A stretch of DNA of 64,000 nt from Fischerella sp. JS2 (GCF_032393985.1 NZ_CP135918.1:62001-126000); one strand, 5' to 3'; numbered from the stretch's first letter, positions 4,844 to 38,670 are shown. Numbers and translations are program-made. The notes: generated by a model not told the origin, from the sequence alone.

Positions 4844-6055
4844 TTACTCCACTTTGGCTGTAATTCCCTTGCTTTGTAAAAATTGCATCTGTTTTTTCAC
4901 TTGTTCTTTGGTTTTGAAAGCTCCTAAATAAATCGATTTTTTATCTTTAGATAAATAAGCATCAGGAACTACTTGCCGTACTTTGGCCAAGCTTTTTTCA
5001 TCTTGATTATCTGTAAAGATGTGAAAAAATCCATCCCTCGATGGTTTTATTCCTGGATCATCGATATTTTGTAGAGTTGGAGTTGGAGTGGGGGTGGTGG
5101 GGATACTAGCAGCAACAGTCGGTAATGGAGTTGGGGAGAATATTGGCTGTGCATCTGTAGTAGTCTCAGGTGCAACTGTCGGATTTTGAGTAGCAACTGG
5201 GGTAGATACAGCAATGGGTGTTGGCTTAGGTTTTGGTGTTAAAGCAACAACATCATTAGGGTTTTTGACTTCTGGAAATTCGCTACTGGCGAGATTGGGA
5301 AATTTGGCTATGGGTGTCAGTTCTGGTTCAGCAACTGTGGTGGTTGCTGGTTGGTTGTTGGGGGTATTTTTTTTAAATAAACTGCCGAGATTTAAATTTG
5401 GCAAACTTTTGGGATTAAACACTGCATAACCAAGGCTAAGACTCGCCATCAACATCAACAGCATTGAGCCTATACCCAAAGGTGAAAGCAGGCTGTCATT
5501 GGAATTATTACGCTTTTGGGTTGGTGATTGTTCTTCTGTCAAACTCCGCAGTAGCGCTTCTGATGATTCTAAATAGTCATCAGGTGGTTTGGGGCTGCTT
5601 TCAGGTTTGACGAGGTTGTCACTTTGATTTGTTTTAATAAATGCAGGCACAATACTGGCAGAATTTGGTGCAGGTGGAGAGGGTATTTTAGGAGTATGCT
5701 GTTGTTCATAGTCTTCCTTGGTTGGCGCTGGAATCTGTTGGGTGTCTGGCTCGGATGTTGGCGGTGTGGTGGTGGAAAACTGTGGTAAGGATATTTCCTC
5801 ACTACTGTTGGTAATTGGTGATGGGGTTTCAACTTCCGTTGTTGGGGTGGCTGTTATCTGTTGGAATTTACTACTGATGGGAACACCCATACGAGTTTGA
5901 CTAAGTGTCTTGTATGTAAATCGTGTACGCCGATAACGTGCCAACTCTTGATCTAGTTGTACTTCTAAACTCGCCAGTGCTGCTGCAAGTACTGGCTTTA
6001 ATTGAGGTGTTTTGGAGGATTTTGCACCCGTATCTACTAGAGGGTTTTGACTCAT
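4844..6055 (-). CDS. Membrane-anchored SPOR domain protein
   Basis: The 403 residues comprise a cytoplasmic N-part (1-190, Pro/Thr/Ser rich after a short helical start), one transmembrane segment (about 193-213, LGIGSMLLMLMASLSLGYAV), a Pro/Thr linker and a C-terminal SPOR-like domain (about 342-403, ending KKQMQFLQSKGITAKVE). SPOR domains bind denuded peptidoglycan at division sites. A role in septal wall or cell-division accessory function is therefore inferred. Its stop lies 60 bp upstream of the PspA-like gene's start on the same strand. Confidence 0.75.
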   Translation of the reverse strand: MSQNPLVDTGAKSSKTPQLKPVLAAALASLEVQLDQELARYRRTRFTYKTLSQTRMGVPISSKFQQITATPTTEVETPSPITNSSEEISLPQFSTTTPPTSEPDTQQIPAPTKEDYEQQHTPKIPSPPAPNSASIVPAFIKTNQSDNLVKPESSPKPPDDYLESSEALLRSLTEEQSPTQKRNNSNDSLLSPLGIGSMLLMLMASLSLGYAVFNPKSLPNLNLGSLFKKNTPNNQPATTTVAEPELTPIAKFPNLASSEFPEVKNPNDVVALTPKPKPTPIAVSTPVATQNPTVAPETTTDAQPIFSPTPLPTVAASIPTTPTPTPTLQNIDDPGIKPSRDGFFHIFTDNQDEKSLAKVRQVVPDAYLSKDKKSIYLGAFKTKEQVKKQMQFLQSKGITAKVE

Positions 6056-29549: not shown

Positions 29550-29695
29550 AATATTTCGGCAATATCCAATTTTTTGATTTTCTCCTTTTTACCTTTTTAA
29601 TTGCTGTTTATGTATATACATGCTGAATAATTACATAATTTATTTAGGGTAAACTCATTAAATAGTCAATAAAAATTGAACTTAACAGTAGTTTT

Positions 29696-30031
29696 TTATC
29701 TTTGAGATTGAGGATTATTAAAATTTTTTAATTCATCAATACTACAAAGCAAATGCGGTTTTTTTGGGTTAGTTAAATCTAATTTATCCCAAGGTATAGT
29801 ATAGCCACCATGAATTTTATGCGCTCCCATGAGGTGCAAAAGTCCTACTGCAATATTCCAAGCCGATAATCGTTCTAGCACGCCTATAGTGCCGATTAGA
29901 TATGCTTGCACAACCCATTCATCGCCTTGTTTTTCAGCGCGTACTTCCTCAATTCTGCCTATAGTTTTGCCTGTTAAATCTACTACTTGTTTGCCTAACA
30001 GCAGTTCCAAATTAATTTCACGAGTTGCCAT
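29696..30031 (-). CDS. PRC-barrel domain protein (copy in the nramp operon)
   Basis: The start is set at ATG 30031 (MATREINLELLLGKQVVDL), overlapping the upstream gene's stop by 14 bp; the longer open frame would overlap further. The 111-residue protein is a PRC-barrel: LLGKQVVDLTGKTIGRIEEV near its N-terminus, then EWVVQAYLIGTIGVLERLS and a C-terminal IPWDKLDLTNPKKPHLL. PRC barrels are small beta-barrels used in photosynthetic reaction centres and RNA-processing proteins. In cyanobacterial stress regions they are of unknown role. A closely similar copy lies at 32420-32764. Confidence 0.75.
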   Translation of the reverse strand: MATREINLELLLGKQVVDLTGKTIGRIEEVRAEKQGDEWVVQAYLIGTIGVLERLSAWNIAVGLLHLMGAHKIHGGYTIPWDKLDLTNPKKPHLLCSIDELKNFNNPQSQR

Positions 30032-30392
30032 GTTCTGCTCCTGGAACTTTTTGGATAATATGTTCACGAATCCATTTTTCATAAGCTAAAGCTGGTGTTG
30101 CTTCAGCTTCAACATCGACTTCTACATTAATACCAATATCACGCACCTTTGACCAAGAAATTCTATACGACTGGCTGTGTTTTGCTCCCCACTTACTTTC
30201 TATTACAGCTACCCAATTTGCTAGACGCGGATGTATTCTTCGTGCCAGTACAGTCATTCCTACTTCAATATAAGTAAGTTTTGGTGGTTGTCCTTCACGT
30301 AATTCCATAACAATACCATCAACTTTACCCATATTGCGCTGGTTTTGATCAATTAATTGATTATCAAGTACATCTCGAATTATGTCTATCAT
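30018..30392 (-). CDS. PRC-barrel-like protein
   Basis: The 124-residue protein has a PRC-barrel-like start (RDVLDNQLIDQNQRNMGKVD) and central LTYIEVGMTVLARRIHPRL. The C-terminal helix carries IREHIIQKVPG. It lies 6 bp downstream of the nramp-like gene and overlaps the next PRC gene by 14 bp, so the three are surely one transcript. Its C-terminal third also survives, out of context, in the degenerate copy at 32765-32900. The role is unknown; a membrane- or metal-linked accessory function is only suggested by the operon. Confidence 0.65.
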   Translation of the reverse strand: MIDIIRDVLDNQLIDQNQRNMGKVDGIVMELREGQPPKLTYIEVGMTVLARRIHPRLANWVAVIESKWGAKHSQSYRISWSKVRDIGINVEVDVEAEATPALAYEKWIREHIIQKVPGAEHGNS

Positions 30393-30398
30393 TTTTAT

Positions 30399-31613
30399 TT
30401 AACTCCCAAGAATTTCTAAGGGAATAGCAGCGATCGCTAAAATAAATGCTAGGGCAATTGTAAAGATCACAACGCTGTTACTAATCCAACCATTACGATA
30501 TCTACCTACATATCTTTCATCATTCATTAATACTAAAAATGGTATAATTACAGGTGGCAAAATTACAGCCGTAATTGCCATTGAAAACAAGGTTAGCTGT
30601 AGAGGATCTATACCAATAGCCATGAGTAAGGAAGCGAAAAAGACAAACAAAGTGTAAACTAAACTAAATCTTGCAGCATCCTTTGGTTTGAGATTTTCAC
30701 CCCAATTCCAACCGAAAGCTTGAGCCACAATATAAGCTGTATCTAGAGTGACTTCTAGTGCCGCACCAAAACAAGCAATACCCAGAGATAGTGCAAATAA
30801 AATAAAACCCCAATAACCAAAAGGTTTTGTTAGCATTAATGCTGCTTGTTCGTAGCTATCAACTTCAATACCTTGAGGACGTAGAACTAATGCTGCTACA
30901 ATTAAAACTCCCAGAGAAACAATACTACCAAAGCCCATTCCTAAGGTGGCAACAGCACGATTAACTCCAATATGTCCTTCATCCCACTTATCTTCTACCG
31001 CACCAGAAGAATAGAAATAAAATAGATAAGGGCTAATCAATGCACCTAAAATACTAACAGCAATAAATAAATAATTTTGTGTATCTTCACGTGGTAAAGT
31101 CGGCAATAAACCAGAACCAATCTCTGTCAAATCTGGATGCAGCTTAAAGGTTGCAAATACAAAGGCAAGTGTGATTAATCCCAAGAGGGAAATACCATTT
31201 TCAATAACACTAAAGTTGCCAAACCAAATTAATAGCCATATGGTAAATGCTACTGGTAGAGCATACCATTGAAAACTGATACCAGTTAATAGCTGTAAAG
31301 CTATACAAACACCACCAATTTCTGCTGCTAAAACTAAAAAATCAACTGCAATTTCAGCTAAAAGTGGGATCACATAAAAATTAAATCCAAAACGTTCACG
31401 TACAGCAGCAGCTAGGGTATGCTTGCTCACAGCTGCTAGACGTCCAGACATTTCTACCAAAAATATTACACAGATTGTACCAAGGACTATTGCCCAAATC
31501 AGTTGAAAACCGAATTTAGAACCAGCCTCTGCTGCTGTAGCGATCGCGCCCACATCAAGGAATCCGCCAATACTGGTAATGATTCCCAAAGCAATCTCAA
31601 AAATTTTCTTCAT
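30399..31613 (-). CDS. NRAMP-like divalent metal transporter with altered metal site
   Basis: The 404-residue protein has about 11 transmembrane helices in the NRAMP (LeuT-fold) pattern, from TSIGGFLDVGAIATAAEAG in helix 1 to IFTIALAFILAIAAIPLEI in the last. Canonical NRAMPs use DPGN in helix 1 and MPH in helix 6 to bind Mn2+ or Fe2+. Here the positions read DVGA (Asp20) and SPY (about 194-196), so the usual Met and Asn ligands are missing. It resembles NRAMP-related proteins with changed substrate (for example Mg2+ or Al3+ types), but the ion is unknown. It overlaps the lipoprotein gene by 4 bp (ATGA) and leads two PRC-barrel genes. Confidence 0.75.
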   Translation of the reverse strand: MKKIFEIALGIITSIGGFLDVGAIATAAEAGSKFGFQLIWAIVLGTICVIFLVEMSGRLAAVSKHTLAAAVRERFGFNFYVIPLLAEIAVDFLVLAAEIGGVCIALQLLTGISFQWYALPVAFTIWLLIWFGNFSVIENGISLLGLITLAFVFATFKLHPDLTEIGSGLLPTLPREDTQNYLFIAVSILGALISPYLFYFYSSGAVEDKWDEGHIGVNRAVATLGMGFGSIVSLGVLIVAALVLRPQGIEVDSYEQAALMLTKPFGYWGFILFALSLGIACFGAALEVTLDTAYIVAQAFGWNWGENLKPKDAARFSLVYTLFVFFASLLMAIGIDPLQLTLFSMAITAVILPPVIIPFLVLMNDERYVGRYRNGWISNSVVIFTIALAFILAIAAIPLEILGS

Positions 31614-32050
31614 GGCGCTTCACCTGTTGCTTGTGCAAGCTGATGGATTTTTTGCTCTGTAGCTGATAATTGTTTAATTTGGGTAGCGATCGCGTTGCGG
31701 TTTTTCTGTTCTATAAGGATTGATATTTTATCTATTGTTTTTTGCAGTTGTTGTAGCTGTTCTAATGCGGTATGCCGTTGTGAAGGTACTATTGATAAAT
31801 TTAAGAGTGTATCTGTTTCTTTTTGCAGTTCTTTTTGAGTTTTTTGTAGTGTATCCTTAGCGTAGCTTGTAGGCACAGCATGACGTTGCCACGCATCAGC
31901 AACCATATGCACTGTCGCAGCCCATGAAGATACACTGTTTAATTCTTTTTTTAATTCCTCTGTAGGTTTTGTACTACTACATGAACACGTAAATAATATC
32001 AGTAATAATAAATAATTACTGATAAATATATATTTTTTCGTTCCTAGCAT
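31610..32050 (-). CDS. Small helical lipoprotein, first gene of the nramp operon
   Basis: Of 146 residues, a signal peptide with lipobox-like ILFTC (Cys about residue 22, then SCSS) precedes a mature helical domain with HMVADAWQRHAVPTSYAKD and coiled-coil heptads to the end. It is presumably anchored in the membrane facing the periplasm or lumen. The TGA stop overlaps the start of the nramp-like gene (ATGA), so translation is coupled. It may be an accessory subunit or sensor of the transporter. No family was recognised. Confidence 0.65.
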   Translation of the reverse strand: MLGTKKYIFISNYLLLLILFTCSCSSTKPTEELKKELNSVSSWAATVHMVADAWQRHAVPTSYAKDTLQKTQKELQKETDTLLNLSIVPSQRHTALEQLQQLQKTIDKISILIEQKNRNAIATQIKQLSATEQKIHQLAQATGEAP

Positions 32051-32419
32051 ATCTTAATGCTTATTAAACATTGATAATCATATCTTCTACTTTTTAATAA
32101 TAAAATTCATACATTCAATTTTGAGTAATTCTAAAGTATATTTCTAACACTGTAAATAGACAGAAAATTTACATAAAAAATATAGGAAAATTACTAACTT
32201 TAGACAGATGTTTTCATTAGTCGTATGTGTAGTCAGAGTCTCATATTTTTTTACCCTCATTGTGGGCATAATTGTTCGTGGAGTCTTGCACGAGTTACAG
32301 TATGGTAAGGTGGAGCTTACAAACCTTCGTTACCGGGTTCAACCTAGAACATAAGTATACTTAACCATATTGCTATATGGTTTCACAACATCTTGTTTTC
32401 TATATAATTTTTCAATAGT

Positions 32420-32932
32420 TTAATTATATTCTGATTCCTGCTGTTGCTCGGATAAGATCTTTAATTCATCTATACTACAAAGCAAACGTGGCTTTTTGGG
32501 GTCGCTTAGATCTAATTTTTCCCAAGGGACAATGTAGCCACCATGAATTTTCTTCACTCCTATGAGATATAAAATTTCTGTGGCAATATCCGAAGTTGGT
32601 AATCGTTCTAGCATTCCGATAGTACCGATTATATATACTTGCATAACCCATTCCTCTCCCTGCTTTTCAGCACGTACTTCCTCAATTCTGCCTATGGTTT
32701 TGCCTGTTGGATCTACAACTTGTCTACCTAACAGCTTTTCAAAATCGATATCGTAATTAGCCATGTTTTGCTCCAGGAGTTTTTTGGATAATATTTTAAC
32801 TGACCTATTTTCAGAAGCTAAAGCAACATCAGATCTGGCTTCAACATTGAATTCTACATTAATACTAATATTATGCAGCTTTGACCAAGAAATTTTCTCC
32901 AGTAGCGATCGCTCTCCAAAAATTTCAGACAT
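32420..32932 (-). CDS. PRC-barrel protein in a chimeric frame (degenerate second cassette copy)
   Basis: The functional part probably starts at ATG 32764 (MANYDIDFEKLLGRQVVD), giving a 114-residue PRC-barrel nearly identical in layout to 29696-30031. The frame stays open upstream to 32932. That part is a fusion of an NRAMP fragment (its first codons MSEIFGERS continue from EMS of the transporter) with the tail of the other PRC gene (ISWSKLHNISINVEFNV, compare ISWSKVRDIGINVEVDV). The original cassette was deleted internally. Whether the long form is translated is unknown. Confidence 0.65.
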   Translation of the reverse strand: MSEIFGERSLLEKISWSKLHNISINVEFNVEARSDVALASENRSVKILSKKLLEQNMANYDIDFEKLLGRQVVDPTGKTIGRIEEVRAEKQGEEWVMQVYIIGTIGMLERLPTSDIATEILYLIGVKKIHGGYIVPWEKLDLSDPKKPRLLCSIDELKILSEQQQESEYN

Positions 32933-33000
32933 TTCTAATAAAAATATTACCCAAATCCCACCAAGGACTGTTGCCCAAATTACCTAAATAAGAACTTGAA
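32933..33000 (-). pseudogene. Fragment of an NRAMP-like transporter gene
   Basis: The - strand reads GFQVLI, stop, VIWATVLGGIWVIFLLEMS. It aligns with FGFQLIWAIVLGTICVIFLVEMSG of the intact transporter at 31445-31510, with a stop codon and small indel. Only this helix-2 region survives. It joins directly to the PRC part in the chimeric frame. Confidence 0.7.
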
Positions 33001-33045
33001 AGCCAGACTTATTATAACTTGCAGTCAAACAAAGTTAAAAAACTT

Positions 33046-33273
33046 TTAAAATCCTCGACCACAGATAGAATCAACAACTACTGCTGGTTGATTTCTATTC
33101 TGTTCTCGACACAACAAAACTTTAGCCAAACGTTGTTGCTCATAAAAACGATGAGCTAACCAGCCGATAGGCGTACCTAAAAATGTACCGATAATTAAAC
33201 CAGTAATCAAACTAAAAACAAGATGCTTTCTTTTGATCGTATTTCTTCTTTCAACTGTGTCTTGTCTTAACAT
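33046..33273 (-). CDS. Small single-pass membrane protein
   Basis: The 75-residue protein has a basic start, one helix (about 19-40, LVFSLITGLIIGTFLGTPIGW) and a C-terminal part with two cysteines (LLCREQNRNQP, SICGRGF). The spaced cysteines might pair. It lies just upstream of the degenerate transporter copy on the same strand. No family was recognised; similar tiny membrane proteins accompany stress genes in cyanobacteria, an impression and not a search result. Confidence 0.5.
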   Translation of the reverse strand: MLRQDTVERRNTIKRKHLVFSLITGLIIGTFLGTPIGWLAHRFYEQQRLAKVLLCREQNRNQPAVVVDSICGRGF

Positions 33274-33444
33274 AAATACCTGATTACTTATTTGTATTTC
33301 AAAAAAATATTTAGGAATTTTTGGATTTATAAATAATGGAATTTCCCCCTAGCTTTCTTGTTCAGCTAGAGGGCTAGTGGAGATAAAAATTAACAAATTT
33401 CAAGCTTGTCGGTATAACTTTACATTATACCAATTGAAAAATTC

Positions 33445-33936
33445 TTAAACTTCTGCACCTGCTTTTGGTTCAGCGCCCATAGGGGAAACATAATCACGGA
33501 AAAGAGTGATTTGTTGGCCAAAGTCTAACTCTTTAATTTTGTTGAAGAGTTCCTCTGCTTGAGAAGAAAGCTGATAGTTAGGAGGCATAGGAATGATAGT
33601 AGCATTTTCCATTCCTTGGGCTAAACGATACCAAAATAGCAATTTAGTCGTATCGCTCATTGAACCGTATTCGCGAGTGTATCTATTATCTGCTTGATTA
33701 ATTAAATCTCGCTGTAATTGTAGTTGTTCTTCATGGGATAATTCCTTGACTTGATTGAACAAACCTTCAGCAACATTGGGAGAAACAGTGCTGGCATCGG
33801 GTGCAGCAGGGGTAATAGAATCACCCATTTCTTTGTAGATAAACCAAAATAAAGCAAGCTGTTCATCTACAGGTAAATTTTGAAATGCTTGTACATATTC
33901 ACGAATAGTTGGATCGTTAGTTTGGGTATATGTCAT
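33445..33936 (-). CDS. Helical carotenoid protein (OCP N-terminal-domain homologue)
   Basis: The 163-residue all-helical protein corresponds to the N-terminal domain of the orange carotenoid protein only. Carotenoid-contact regions are recognisable: DEQLALFWFIYKEMGDSIT (Trp31, Tyr34) and TTKLLFWYRLAQGME (Trp102, Tyr103). It also has the end motif GQQITLFRDYVSPMG. Such proteins bind a carotenoid and quench singlet oxygen or phycobilisomes without photoswitching. There is no C-terminal-domain gene or FRP nearby. It is divergent from the SDR gene at 34150 and could share its regulatory region. Confidence 0.9.
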   Translation of the reverse strand: MTYTQTNDPTIREYVQAFQNLPVDEQLALFWFIYKEMGDSITPAAPDASTVSPNVAEGLFNQVKELSHEEQLQLQRDLINQADNRYTREYGSMSDTTKLLFWYRLAQGMENATIIPMPPNYQLSSQAEELFNKIKELDFGQQITLFRDYVSPMGAEPKAGAEV

Positions 33937-34149
33937 GATAACTCCGATTTGCCAGAAATTAAGATACTAATAGTAAAGTTATCAAAGCATCATTGAGTAT
34001 TTAACCCTACTGAAGACAGATGTATCTCAACCAAATTGCAGAAGAATTAAAAGGGGTAATTGGTAATGGATAATCGGAAAAATTTTAAGCACTAATCACC
34101 AATTATCAATTGAACTAATCATTAAATAATCCAAAGGAAGGATGCAAAA

Positions 34150-35025
34150 ATGGATAGACGTTTAGAAGGCAAAGTGGCTATTATCACAGGATCTGGAACT
34201 GGTATAGGTGAAGCTATTGCCCATAAGTTTGCCAAAGAAGGCGCTGCTGTCGTTGTCAATGGGCTAGCAGATGACCCAATTGAAGACGTGGTACAAAAAA
34301 TTAAACATTATGGTGGCAAAGCGATCGCCTACGCGGGTGATGTTTCCCAAGAGTTTCACGCTCAAAACTGCGTGCAAACTGCAATTAATGCCTATGGTAA
34401 GTTGGATATTCTGGTTAATAACGCAGGTGTATTTCTTGCCACCGCAGAAACTCAAGACTACCCTATTGAAGTTTTTGATGAAACTATACGTATGAACCTC
34501 CGTTCAGCATTTTTAATGACAAAATACGCACTGCCGCATCTACAAAAAACACGGGGTAATATTATTTCTGCTGGTTCCGAGGCTGGTTTCAATGGCTTGG
34601 CATATAATACACCTTACGGAGGCACTAAAGGTTGGATGCATTCCTTTATGAAAGGTGTTGCTGTAGAACAAGCCAGACATGGCATCCGTGCTAACTGTGT
34701 TTGCCCTGGTGCAATTGATACAGCTTGGACACACAAAGAAGAAGGGCCAATGAATGCCAAAATGGAGAAAACCCTGATTGAAGCCACACCACTGGCACGA
34801 CGCGGCACACCAGAGGAAATAGCTAACATCTACGCTTTCCTTGCTTCTGATGAAGCCAGCTATGTAACAGGTGCTTTGTGGCTAGCTGATGGTGGTGTTA
34901 CTGTTGCTAAGGGGGCAGTTGGTAAAGACACTCCATTTTGGTTACGTTCTGAACCCCAAGGCGAACTACGCCTCGATCACTCTCAGGAAGGATTGGAGAA
35001 CAAACAAACCCAGTCAAAGATTTAG
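34150..35025 (+). CDS. Short-chain dehydrogenase/reductase
   Basis: The 291-residue SDR has the NAD(P)-binding TGSGTGIG (13-20), NNAG motif and catalytic Tyr-x3-Lys in PYGGTKGWMHS (near residue 157), followed by PGAIDT. The C-terminal tail extends past the normal end with a charged stretch. These enzymes oxidise sugars or alcohols such as glucose 1-dehydrogenase-type substrates; the true substrate is unknown. A strong AAAGGAAGG ribosome site precedes the ATG. It heads the stress-type island and is divergent from the carotenoid protein gene. Confidence 0.85.
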   Translation: MDRRLEGKVAIITGSGTGIGEAIAHKFAKEGAAVVVNGLADDPIEDVVQKIKHYGGKAIAYAGDVSQEFHAQNCVQTAINAYGKLDILVNNAGVFLATAETQDYPIEVFDETIRMNLRSAFLMTKYALPHLQKTRGNIISAGSEAGFNGLAYNTPYGGTKGWMHSFMKGVAVEQARHGIRANCVCPGAIDTAWTHKEEGPMNAKMEKTLIEATPLARRGTPEEIANIYAFLASDEASYVTGALWLADGGVTVAKGAVGKDTPFWLRSEPQGELRLDHSQEGLENKQTQSKI

Positions 35026-35111
35026 ATGAAATAGGAAACGGGGAACAGGGAACAGGGAAAGGTAATTAGAATATTGTTTATTTTTCCAATGTTCAATTCC
35101 CACTCCTCACA

Positions 35112-35149
35112 CCCCACCCTACGGGAAGCCGCGCAAAGCGCGTCTACAC
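35112..35149 (-). repeat. Copy of the cgcgtctac/cttcccgtaggg module
   Basis: This matches 134-171 and 57412-57449 in reverse orientation. Heptamer-like cactcctcacacccc runs flank it between the SDR and DUF6335 genes. Confidence 0.75.
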
Positions 35150-35177
35150 ACCTCTCACACCTCATCCCCCATCTCCT

Positions 35178-35654
35178 TTACTCCCTACGTTCCTCATAAT
35201 CCTCGCTAGATAGAGGATCTAGCTCCCAACGCCTGTCGTCACGCTGCTCTAACATATCGTTTGTCCGCAGAAATGCAAAATCGTTCATCTCTATCCCAAC
35301 AGCAGCACCAATTTCATCAACGATATCCTGATCGGGAGTTGGGGCGGTACCACCTGGGGCCTCATCACCGACATCGGCAGCTTCTTCCCAAGCTGCATCC
35401 ACATCCCCACCAGTTAACTCAGGACTAGTGTAGTTGTAACGCTGTTCTTCATCGCGCAGTCTGCGATCGCCTATGTTATACCCTGGCTCATCCTTCACAC
35501 CAGTACCATAAGACTCTGTAATTTCCTCCGGTAAGTCAGAAATTTGCGGTGGTAAATTTTCCTGTTGAGGTTGTTTATCCGGATCTACTTGATTTAGTTG
35601 AGCTTCTAAATCTTGTGGAGCTTGATAATCTTGTTGAATGTCTGGATCTACCAT
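35178..35654 (-). CDS. DUF6335-like acidic hydrophilic protein
   Basis: The 158-residue protein has no membrane segment and is very acidic, glutamine-rich in the first 50 residues. The conserved-looking part is PELTGGDVDAAWEEAADVGD through APTPDQDIVDEIGAAVG, ending RWELDPLSSEDYEERRE. This is the pattern of the DUF6335 group in cyanobacteria (name recalled, not searched). It may be a disordered stress protein. It is convergent with the SDR gene. Confidence 0.65.
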   Translation of the reverse strand: MVDPDIQQDYQAPQDLEAQLNQVDPDKQPQQENLPPQISDLPEEITESYGTGVKDEPGYNIGDRRLRDEEQRYNYTSPELTGGDVDAAWEEAADVGDEAPGGTAPTPDQDIVDEIGAAVGIEMNDFAFLRTNDMLEQRDDRRWELDPLSSEDYEERRE

Positions 35655-36234
35655 AAATACTTGCTATTTATTGCATCCCCACAATAACGCTTTATTTTCT
35701 TACGGTTGTCTTCCAACCGATGTATACCTCCGGAAAGAAAATCATTTCAACCTTTAGAGCGAAGAGCAATTGGGAATTTGTGCATACTCTTATAAGAGTG
35801 AATCCACGCTATAGCCACTTCATCAAAGTTATGAGTTGTGAACTTTAGTTAATATCATAAATTCATAGCTCATAACTATTTTTTTAAAATTATAAATGGG
35901 ACTTCTCACAATTTCATTAATCTATTTCCAAAGATGTACCTGAGTTTTTCGCAAAATAGTTCTTGTGAATGAATGCATATACAAAGTAAAACATCAAAAT
36001 TGAGTTCATGGTCAAGTTACTTAATCAAGTTACTTAATATTAAAGTTAGGATTGTTTTAATTGAGACTGACTAATTTTTATTTTTAATAAAAGCAGTAAG
36101 TCTCAATCCTAACTGTTTCTTAAAAAAATAATATTGTTCTGATTTATCACTATTTTTACTAAATTCATTTTTATTAATTTTATTAGAAACAAAAGTATTT
36201 TGAATTGAATTAATCTTGAATGGAGGTAAAAAAA
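35655..36234. other. Regulatory-looking gap with tandem 13-mer and large hairpin
   Basis: The tcaagttacttaa unit occurs twice in tandem (about 36012-36039). Next is a long interrupted inverted repeat (gttaggatt at 36045-36053 with agtctcaatcctaac at 36099-36113). No gene was seen. It separates two divergent island genes, so shared regulation is plausible. Confidence 0.45.
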
Positions 36235-36636
36235 GTGAAATATGAGGAATTTATTACACATGTTCAAAGTGTTGCCCTGTTAAATACACGAGAAGAAGCA
36301 GAACGAGCTACTCGTGCCACACTGGAAACAATTAAAGAACGAATTGTTGGTGATGAAGCAAAAGATTTAGCTTCACAATTGCCAGAGAAATTAGCAGAAT
36401 GCCTACACGGAAGAGAAGGTGAGAACGGTCAACCATTCTCACTGCAAGAGTTTATTGCCCGGGTGAGTAAAAAAGAGGGAGTAGAACCAACTGCTGCTGC
36501 AATACATATTCGTTCTGTGTTTACAGTTCTACAAGATGCTGTGACACCAGGGGAATTTGCCGATTTTCAGAGTAATTTTTCTGCCGATTATGCAGAACTA
36601 TTTCCTACTGCACCAACTAGTGAAGTGTCGACGTAA
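36235..36636 (+). CDS. DUF2267 domain protein
   Basis: The start is set at GTG 36235 because a perfect GGAGG lies 8-12 bp ahead of it, inside the five-codon extension that ATG 36220 would give. The 133-residue protein is the DUF2267 helical domain (KYEEFITHVQSVALL, EEAERATRATLETIKERI, DLASQLPEKLAECL, FADFQSNFSADYAELF). The family often sits in stress clusters and its function is unknown. It is the first of several + strand island genes. Confidence 0.85.
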   Translation: MKYEEFITHVQSVALLNTREEAERATRATLETIKERIVGDEAKDLASQLPEKLAECLHGREGENGQPFSLQEFIARVSKKEGVEPTAAAIHIRSVFTVLQDAVTPGEFADFQSNFSADYAELFPTAPTSEVST

Positions 36637-37971: not shown

Positions 37972-38670
37972 ATGGCATCAACATCAGGAGAGGGACTCAG
38001 TAGCAGCCAGAGTGAAGCCAGTGAAGCCGAACGTTGGGCTTCCTTGATTGGTGGTAGTGCAATGGTATTAATGGGTTTGAGACAACGCTCTCTAAGAGGC
38101 GTTTTGATGGCGTTGGCAGGTGGAGGTTTAATTTATCAAGGTGCAACTAAACAAAGCACGATTCAGCAGGCACAGGAAGCAATAGGCATGAACCAAGCTA
38201 TCAAAGTCGAAAAGACGGTAACTATAAATAAATCGGCAGATGAACTTTACCGCTTTTGGCATAACTTTGAGAATCTGCCCAGGTTCATGAAGCATCTCAA
38301 AAATGTGAAGGTGTATGACGACAAAAAGTCTCACTGGATTGCTAATGCACCTTTAGGTCAAAGTGTGGAATGGGATGCATATATTCTAGAAGACCGGGAA
38401 AACGAATTTATTTCTTGGGCCTCCGCAGAAGGGGCAGATGTAGATAACTCTGGTTTTGTCCGCTTCACGAAAGCACCTGGGAATCGGGGTACCGAAGTCA
38501 AAGTAGTTATGGAATATAACCCACCAGGGGGAGCATTGGGAGCAGCGATCGCTAAACTCTTTGGTGAAGAACCAGAACAACAAATTGGCGATGAACTACG
38601 ACGTTTCAAAATGCTGATGGAAGCAGGCGAAATCGCCACCACACAAGGGCAACCAAAAGGCAATGGTTAA
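37972..38670 (+). CDS. SRPBCC (START-like) protein with N-terminal membrane segment
   Basis: Of 232 residues, about 25-60 form hydrophobic segments (WASLIGGSAMVLMGLRQ, GVLMALAGGGLIYQG) of the YgaP-like membrane type. A START/SRPBCC domain follows (about 75-220): KTVTINKSADELYRFWHNFE, SVEWDAYILEDRENEFISW, GDELRRFKMLMEAGEI. Such domains bind hydrophobic ligands or act as cyclase/dehydratase-like proteins. The aaaggagaATG ribosome site supports this start. It precedes the first zinc dehydrogenase and may share its transcript. Confidence 0.75.
   Translation: MASTSGEGLSSSQSEASEAERWASLIGGSAMVLMGLRQRSLRGVLMALAGGGLIYQGATKQSTIQQAQEAIGMNQAIKVEKTVTINKSADELYRFWHNFENLPRFMKHLKNVKVYDDKKSHWIANAPLGQSVEWDAYILEDRENEFISWASAEGADVDNSGFVRFTKAPGNRGTEVKVVMEYNPPGGALGAAIAKLFGEEPEQQIGDELRRFKMLMEAGEIATTQGQPKGNG

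Follow-up and report, generated by a model that had tools for sequence, protein, structure and literature searches.

A probable collapsed duplicate of an NRAMP/PRC-barrel cassette beside the intact operon in Fischerella sp. JS2

Tandem duplication followed by partial loss is an ordinary route of pseudogene formation in bacteria, and the locus described here, in a 64,000-nucleotide window from Fischerella sp. JS2 (genome G000), has the same hallmarks: a head-to-tail partial copy, an intact parent and short deletions. Relaxed evolution of the part that remains is likewise seen here, and nothing essential differs, the leftover readable gene belonging to a putative PRC-barrel accessory family. The protein families involved have described members. 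Canonical transporters of the NRAMP (SLC11) family carry the motifs DPGN in TM1 and MPH in TM6, and the PRC-barrel fold occurs in RimM, the reaction-centre H subunit and the archaeal proteins CdpB1 and CdpB2. An internal deletion of smtB is reportedly bordered by HIP1 sites. Some evidence links HIP1 to site-specific or illegitimate recombination (PMC4390886). Among the papers listed in our literature search on such an operon, none mentioned NRAMP together with a PRC-barrel.

The intact operon, lipo–NRAMP–PRC1–PRC2, occupies 32050-29696 on the minus strand between SurE and TM75, which adjoins a helical carotenoid protein gene. An earlier note on this DNA had placed a lipoprotein/NRAMP/PRC/PRC operon there, and all four open reading frames are indeed present and intact. 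The first gene, lipo (31610-32050), encodes a putative lipoprotein of 146 aa and also stands first, 5′ of NRAMP, in relatives (27–55% identity). It is followed by NRAMP (30399-31613; 404 aa), a full-length match to its transporter family with PF01566 spanning residues 24–375 (E=1.6e-67) and 77–90% identity in relatives, by PRC1 (30018-30392; 124 aa), whose position between NRAMP and PRC2 is conserved, and by PRC2 (29696-30031; 111 aa), which overlaps PRC1 in a different frame.

NRAMP is the sole cassette protein to be named by NCBIfam at cut-off. It is homologous to SLC11 transporters along its whole length, and its nearest solved structure is 7qia (E=1.2e-44), which we take to be EleNRMT, an NRAMP-related magnesium transporter; unlike canonical members, however, it has DVGA in TM1 and SPY in TM6, and because these motifs are noncanonical its substrate is uncertain. 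PF05239 (PRC-barrel) was detected at E≤0.01 in 10 of 16 PRC2 orthologues and in two of 14 PRC1 orthologues, with the intact PRC2 of Fischerella sp. JS2 scoring 18.8 bits against a curated cut-off of 21.2. The top Foldseek matches of a PRC2 structure model (mean pLDDT 62) were nearly all PRC-barrels (probability ~1, E ~4e-3), among them a heterodimer of two PRC domains. PRC2 is thus predicted to share the fold of the described PRC-barrel proteins but differs from them in a sequence that, for the intact copy, falls below the Pfam cut-off and in having a transporter operon as its partner. Profile comparison related PRC1 to PRC2 with 92% probability; the PRC1 model, with a mean pLDDT of 45, was left out. 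From these sequence comparisons, the products of the operon are probably a divalent-metal carrier of the NRAMP family and two PRC-barrel accessory proteins, and we infer that the latter may act in the cytoplasm as accessories of the transporter.

Upstream of this operon and on the same strand, three pieces at 33009-32420 repeat parts of it directly, with order and orientation unchanged: part of NRAMP, the tail of PRC1 and a whole PRC2 gene, as the earlier note had reported. The NRAMP remnant (32926-33009), corresponding to about residues 29–56, is 75% identical over 84 nt to 31445-31528. The PRC1 tail remnant (32765-32894) gives a gapped alignment to 30162-30032, within which 57 nt (32838-32894 versus 30106-30162) match at 89%. 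The third piece, PRC2dup (32420-32764), is a complete gene of 114 aa that matches PRC2 at 80% over 300 nt (32460-32759 versus 29727-30026). Local-alignment scores for the PRC2, PRC1 and NRAMP pieces were 185, 71 and 42, which so far exceed the corresponding shuffle maxima of 18, 20 and 16 that chance matching is excluded. The NRAMP and PRC1 remnants are separated by ~31 nt of filler (32895-32925) containing a HIP1 site (GCGATCGC) at 32905-32912. When the filler was compared with the intact cassette for an origin, its match was no better than the shuffle range; among relatives, about half show a weak similarity of its first part to one and the same place at the NRAMP 3′ end, at or slightly above the 95% shuffle level. 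A candidate promoter for PRC2dup at 33038-33011 was rejected, with 10 matches in this region versus 14.3 in shuffles and a −10 box that is not kept in a genus mate, G001.

We found the same NRAMP remnant at the orthologous position in G001 (locus L056, about 1960-2042), where the helical carotenoid protein gene, TM75, the remnant and the filler follow one another as in Fischerella sp. JS2 (88% over 414 nt including TM75), the filler being common to both up to HIP1. After the filler, the G001 sequence jumps at GCGATCGCTAC into lipo and then into the start of NRAMP, and further on come unrelated acyltransferase-like genes and SurE. The first of these junctions lies in a segment (L056 2040-2110) produced by a deletion that ran from one GCGATCGC site to another and took out PRC2dup together with some of the intact copy; both HIP1 parents of this junction survive in Fischerella sp. 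JS2, at 32905 and 31686. Since G001 carries the same remnant with the HIP1 deletion on top of it, the duplication is older than the split between the two genomes, and so is the loss of NRAMP sequence. This deletion joins two HIP1 sites, as in HIP1-associated recombination in cyanobacteria, but is a single case in which a role for HIP1 is not distinguishable from that of a mere 11-bp shared sequence. HIP1 as a general explanation for cassette junctions was not upheld: it fits the one in G001, but the junction in G501, with no full HIP1 on either side in its nearest relative, G529, is not demonstrably a HIP1-to-HIP1 event. In the second genus mate, G002, the segment corresponding to ~29600 to 36436 has been lost, with further pieces up to 43669, in nested deletions, and the surrounding region appears to be deletion-prone. 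Neither PRC2 copy is present in G001 or G002. More distantly, cassette fragments lie beyond TM75 in G395 and G391 and an intact cassette lies 5′ of SurE in G440, so this locus is an old cassette position.

Damaged copies of the cassette are common in the family. PRC2 sequence was found in 28 of 217 family genomes and 13 of 389 order genomes; NRAMP and PRC1 were searched in the same 217 genomes, a fairer comparison than the PRC2 search alone. In G446, no cassette gene other than PRC2 was detected. In G457 PRC2 is readable, a foreign insert is flanked by NRAMP and PRC1 stubs, and the lipo frame is shortened, whereas G501 has an in-frame lipo–PRC1 fusion followed by PRC2 (L123 4847-5365) and in G332 an in-frame fusion joins the N-terminal 22 residues of PRC1 to PRC2 (L023 5868-6221). 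Elsewhere, NRAMP is broken and the other genes are readable (G491, G430), PRC2 itself is broken (G454, G391, G469, G410), or fragments were identified, of PRC1 (G395, G496 and a second site in G447), of NRAMP next to lipo (G512, G513, G514) or short ones (G487, G500). Counting PRC2dup, there are five cases of a readable PRC2 with PRC1 lost or truncated and none of the reverse (two-sided sign test calculated by hand, p ~0.06).

Several features argue for the tandem duplication, with most of one copy lost, that had been put forward from the sequence of this locus. The pieces are colinear, the alignment reaches past PRC2 into PRC1 and NRAMP, and relatives show no independent long gene at the locus. 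Two PRC2 genes occur in no other genome searched (217 from the family and 389 from the order), the two G454 entries being one frameshifted gene, and PRC2 and PRC2dup group as sisters in a 28-sequence tree (UFBoot 97 for amino acids, 99 for nucleotides) and, with 14 sequences, at 97 and 97. This close kinship, with the copies head to tail, makes it highly improbable that the upstream remnant derives from a separate, related cassette that arrived beside the first by horizontal transfer. The patchy distribution of the cassette (28 of 217 family genomes) and its presence on plasmids, some of them rhizobial and identical in gene order, do mark it as mobile, and homology between the copies stops ~10 codons short of the PRC2 stop with no preserved duplication breakpoint, which leaves room for a second, closely related cassette. 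Gene conversion between the copies could make the duplication appear younger than it is. The chimeric reading frame that the earlier note described is a separate matter. A 170-aa frame (32420-32932, minus strand) does start at 32932 and does join the PRC1 tail, with the filler before it, to PRC2dup, a 1-nt deletion in an A-run near 32812 having put these two parts of the duplicate in one frame; the NRAMP stretch VIWATVLGG, however, lies 5′ of any ATG, GTG or TTG and therefore outside it. Because the ATG at 32932 is the M of LLEMS, at most two NRAMP-derived residues (MS) are included. That this frame is made as a new protein combining the PRC1 tail with PRC2 seems extremely improbable, even though 187 codons are open from stop to stop and the same cassette has in-frame fusions in G332 (PRC1–PRC2) and G501 (lipo–PRC1). 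Nothing resembling a ribosome site lies close 5′ of 32932, and neither start nor frame is kept in G001, where the orthologous stretch has ATA for ATG and in-frame stops (one relative compared, with PRC2dup deleted there). Moreover, PRC2dup has an ATG and a ribosome-site-like GGAG of its own: GGAGCA(A/G)AAC precedes the start codon in both copies, and translation of PRC2 most likely begins at 30031 in the intact operon and at 32764 in the duplicate. The 170-aa frame is probably a by-product of the 1-nt deletion rather than a protein that is made.

How PRC2dup has been kept is less simple, and we examined it with custom-written codon models run on a fixed tree, not with a standard package. Pairwise dN/dS between PRC2 and PRC2dup was 0.31; on the PRC2dup branch it was 0.34 with eight sequences and 0.36 with 24, against a background of 0.15–0.16. 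A value of 1 was rejected for this branch (2 delta lnL 6.4 and 5.0 respectively), and the excess over background was borderline (4.6 and 3.8). In simulations with 39–70 substitutions the frame stayed open by chance in ~5–13% of cases. Thus, with dN/dS=1 rejected and the open frame seldom due to chance, PRC2dup must have retained some function for a part of its history at least. The earlier note had proposed that the second PRC2 is under selection for dosage, with which the complete frame and a dN/dS below 1 are compatible; dosage predicts a conserved sequence, however, and PRC2dup is only 66% identical to PRC2 in amino acids (34% divergence), with 17 polarised amino-acid changes against eight in the intact copy, about twice as many. 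It is also altered at four of 23 positions (E5, L8, S56 and A57) that do not vary among 16 orthologues spanning cyanobacteria and rhizobia, and the Ser-Ala of its SAW motif, invariant elsewhere, is gone. With both PRC2 copies, moreover, missing from G001 and G002, we consider retention for gene dosage very improbable and abandon that part of the proposal. The pattern looks like that of a relaxed or shifting paralogue and not that of one maintained for its dosage. Selection on PRC2dup in its own right, for a function that is new or independent of the transporter, is rather unlikely and has more in its favour; the same might hold for PRC2 in relatives where the rest of the cassette is gone or broken. 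PRC2 stands alone in G446 and is readable in G332, G457 and G501 despite truncated or missing NRAMP and PRC1, and the PRC2 branches of these four genomes have a dN/dS of 0.12 (1 rejected, 2 delta lnL 25), an estimate that includes time before the transporter was lost; PRC2dup departs from 1 as well. Yet PRC2dup is without the invariant residues that the solitary PRC2 copies keep, and PRC1 lies in mid-cassette, where deletions are likelier. Non-random retention of PRC2 was not upheld, p being ~0.06 and a bias towards deletion of middle genes an adequate alternative. The broader proposal that deletions of NRAMP and PRC1 have collapsed the cassette repeatedly, each time independently, that the terminal gene, PRC2, is preserved by selection as a PRC-barrel protein standing on its own and that PRC2dup is a further case next to an intact operon is put forward here as tentative and rather unlikely. 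We favour, with a probability of about 0.85, a collapsed duplicate shared before the G000/G001 split, which has left PRC2dup as a paralogue that is relaxed, diverging or dying slowly. On this account, lipo–NRAMP–PRC1–PRC2 would have been duplicated head to tail before the two genomes separated, a date given by the remnant common to both; short deletions would then have stripped the upstream copy of lipo and of the greater part of NRAMP and PRC1, as the surviving pieces attest, the exact steps being our reconstruction; and PRC2dup would have remained readable from its own start codon beside the intact operon while it relaxed, diverged or slowly decayed.

Taken alone, the finding is a routine duplication remnant, the product of ordinary gene duplication and decay. 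Set beside the relatives, it provides a compact record of the erosion of one accessory operon in filamentous cyanobacteria, including one clean HIP1-to-HIP1 deletion for which both parental sequences survive in a sister genome. It also raises the possibility that the uncharacterised PRC2 protein may function without its transporter, although the numbers are small.

Other rearrangements were observed in the course of these comparisons. In G002 (L057 2070-2850), segments corresponding to window positions 36436-36551, 38230-38599 and 43669 onward are joined and form another mixed open reading frame. The insert in G457 (L118 about 5510-5640) has inverted ends (CAATACGGTTCGG...CCGAACCGTATTG), is MITE-like and replaces most of NRAMP and PRC1. 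On plasmid pCHRO.01 of Chroococcidiopsis thermalis, NRAMP is split by ~1.4 kb of inserted DNA (L025 3320-4685; the same record as L203), and in G447 (L182 4855-5040) a stop-containing PRC1 fragment, 89% identical to that genome's own PRC1, lies ~6.5 kb from an intact cassette and is a partial duplicate. As for the flanking genes, TM75 (33046-33273, minus strand; 75 aa with one likely membrane helix) was assigned to no family at the cut-offs of Pfam or NCBIfam. It adjoins the helical carotenoid protein gene (33445-33936, minus strand) in nearly all relatives inspected (L056, L108, L181, L189-L193, L195-L198), and is a conserved, apparently unnamed partner.
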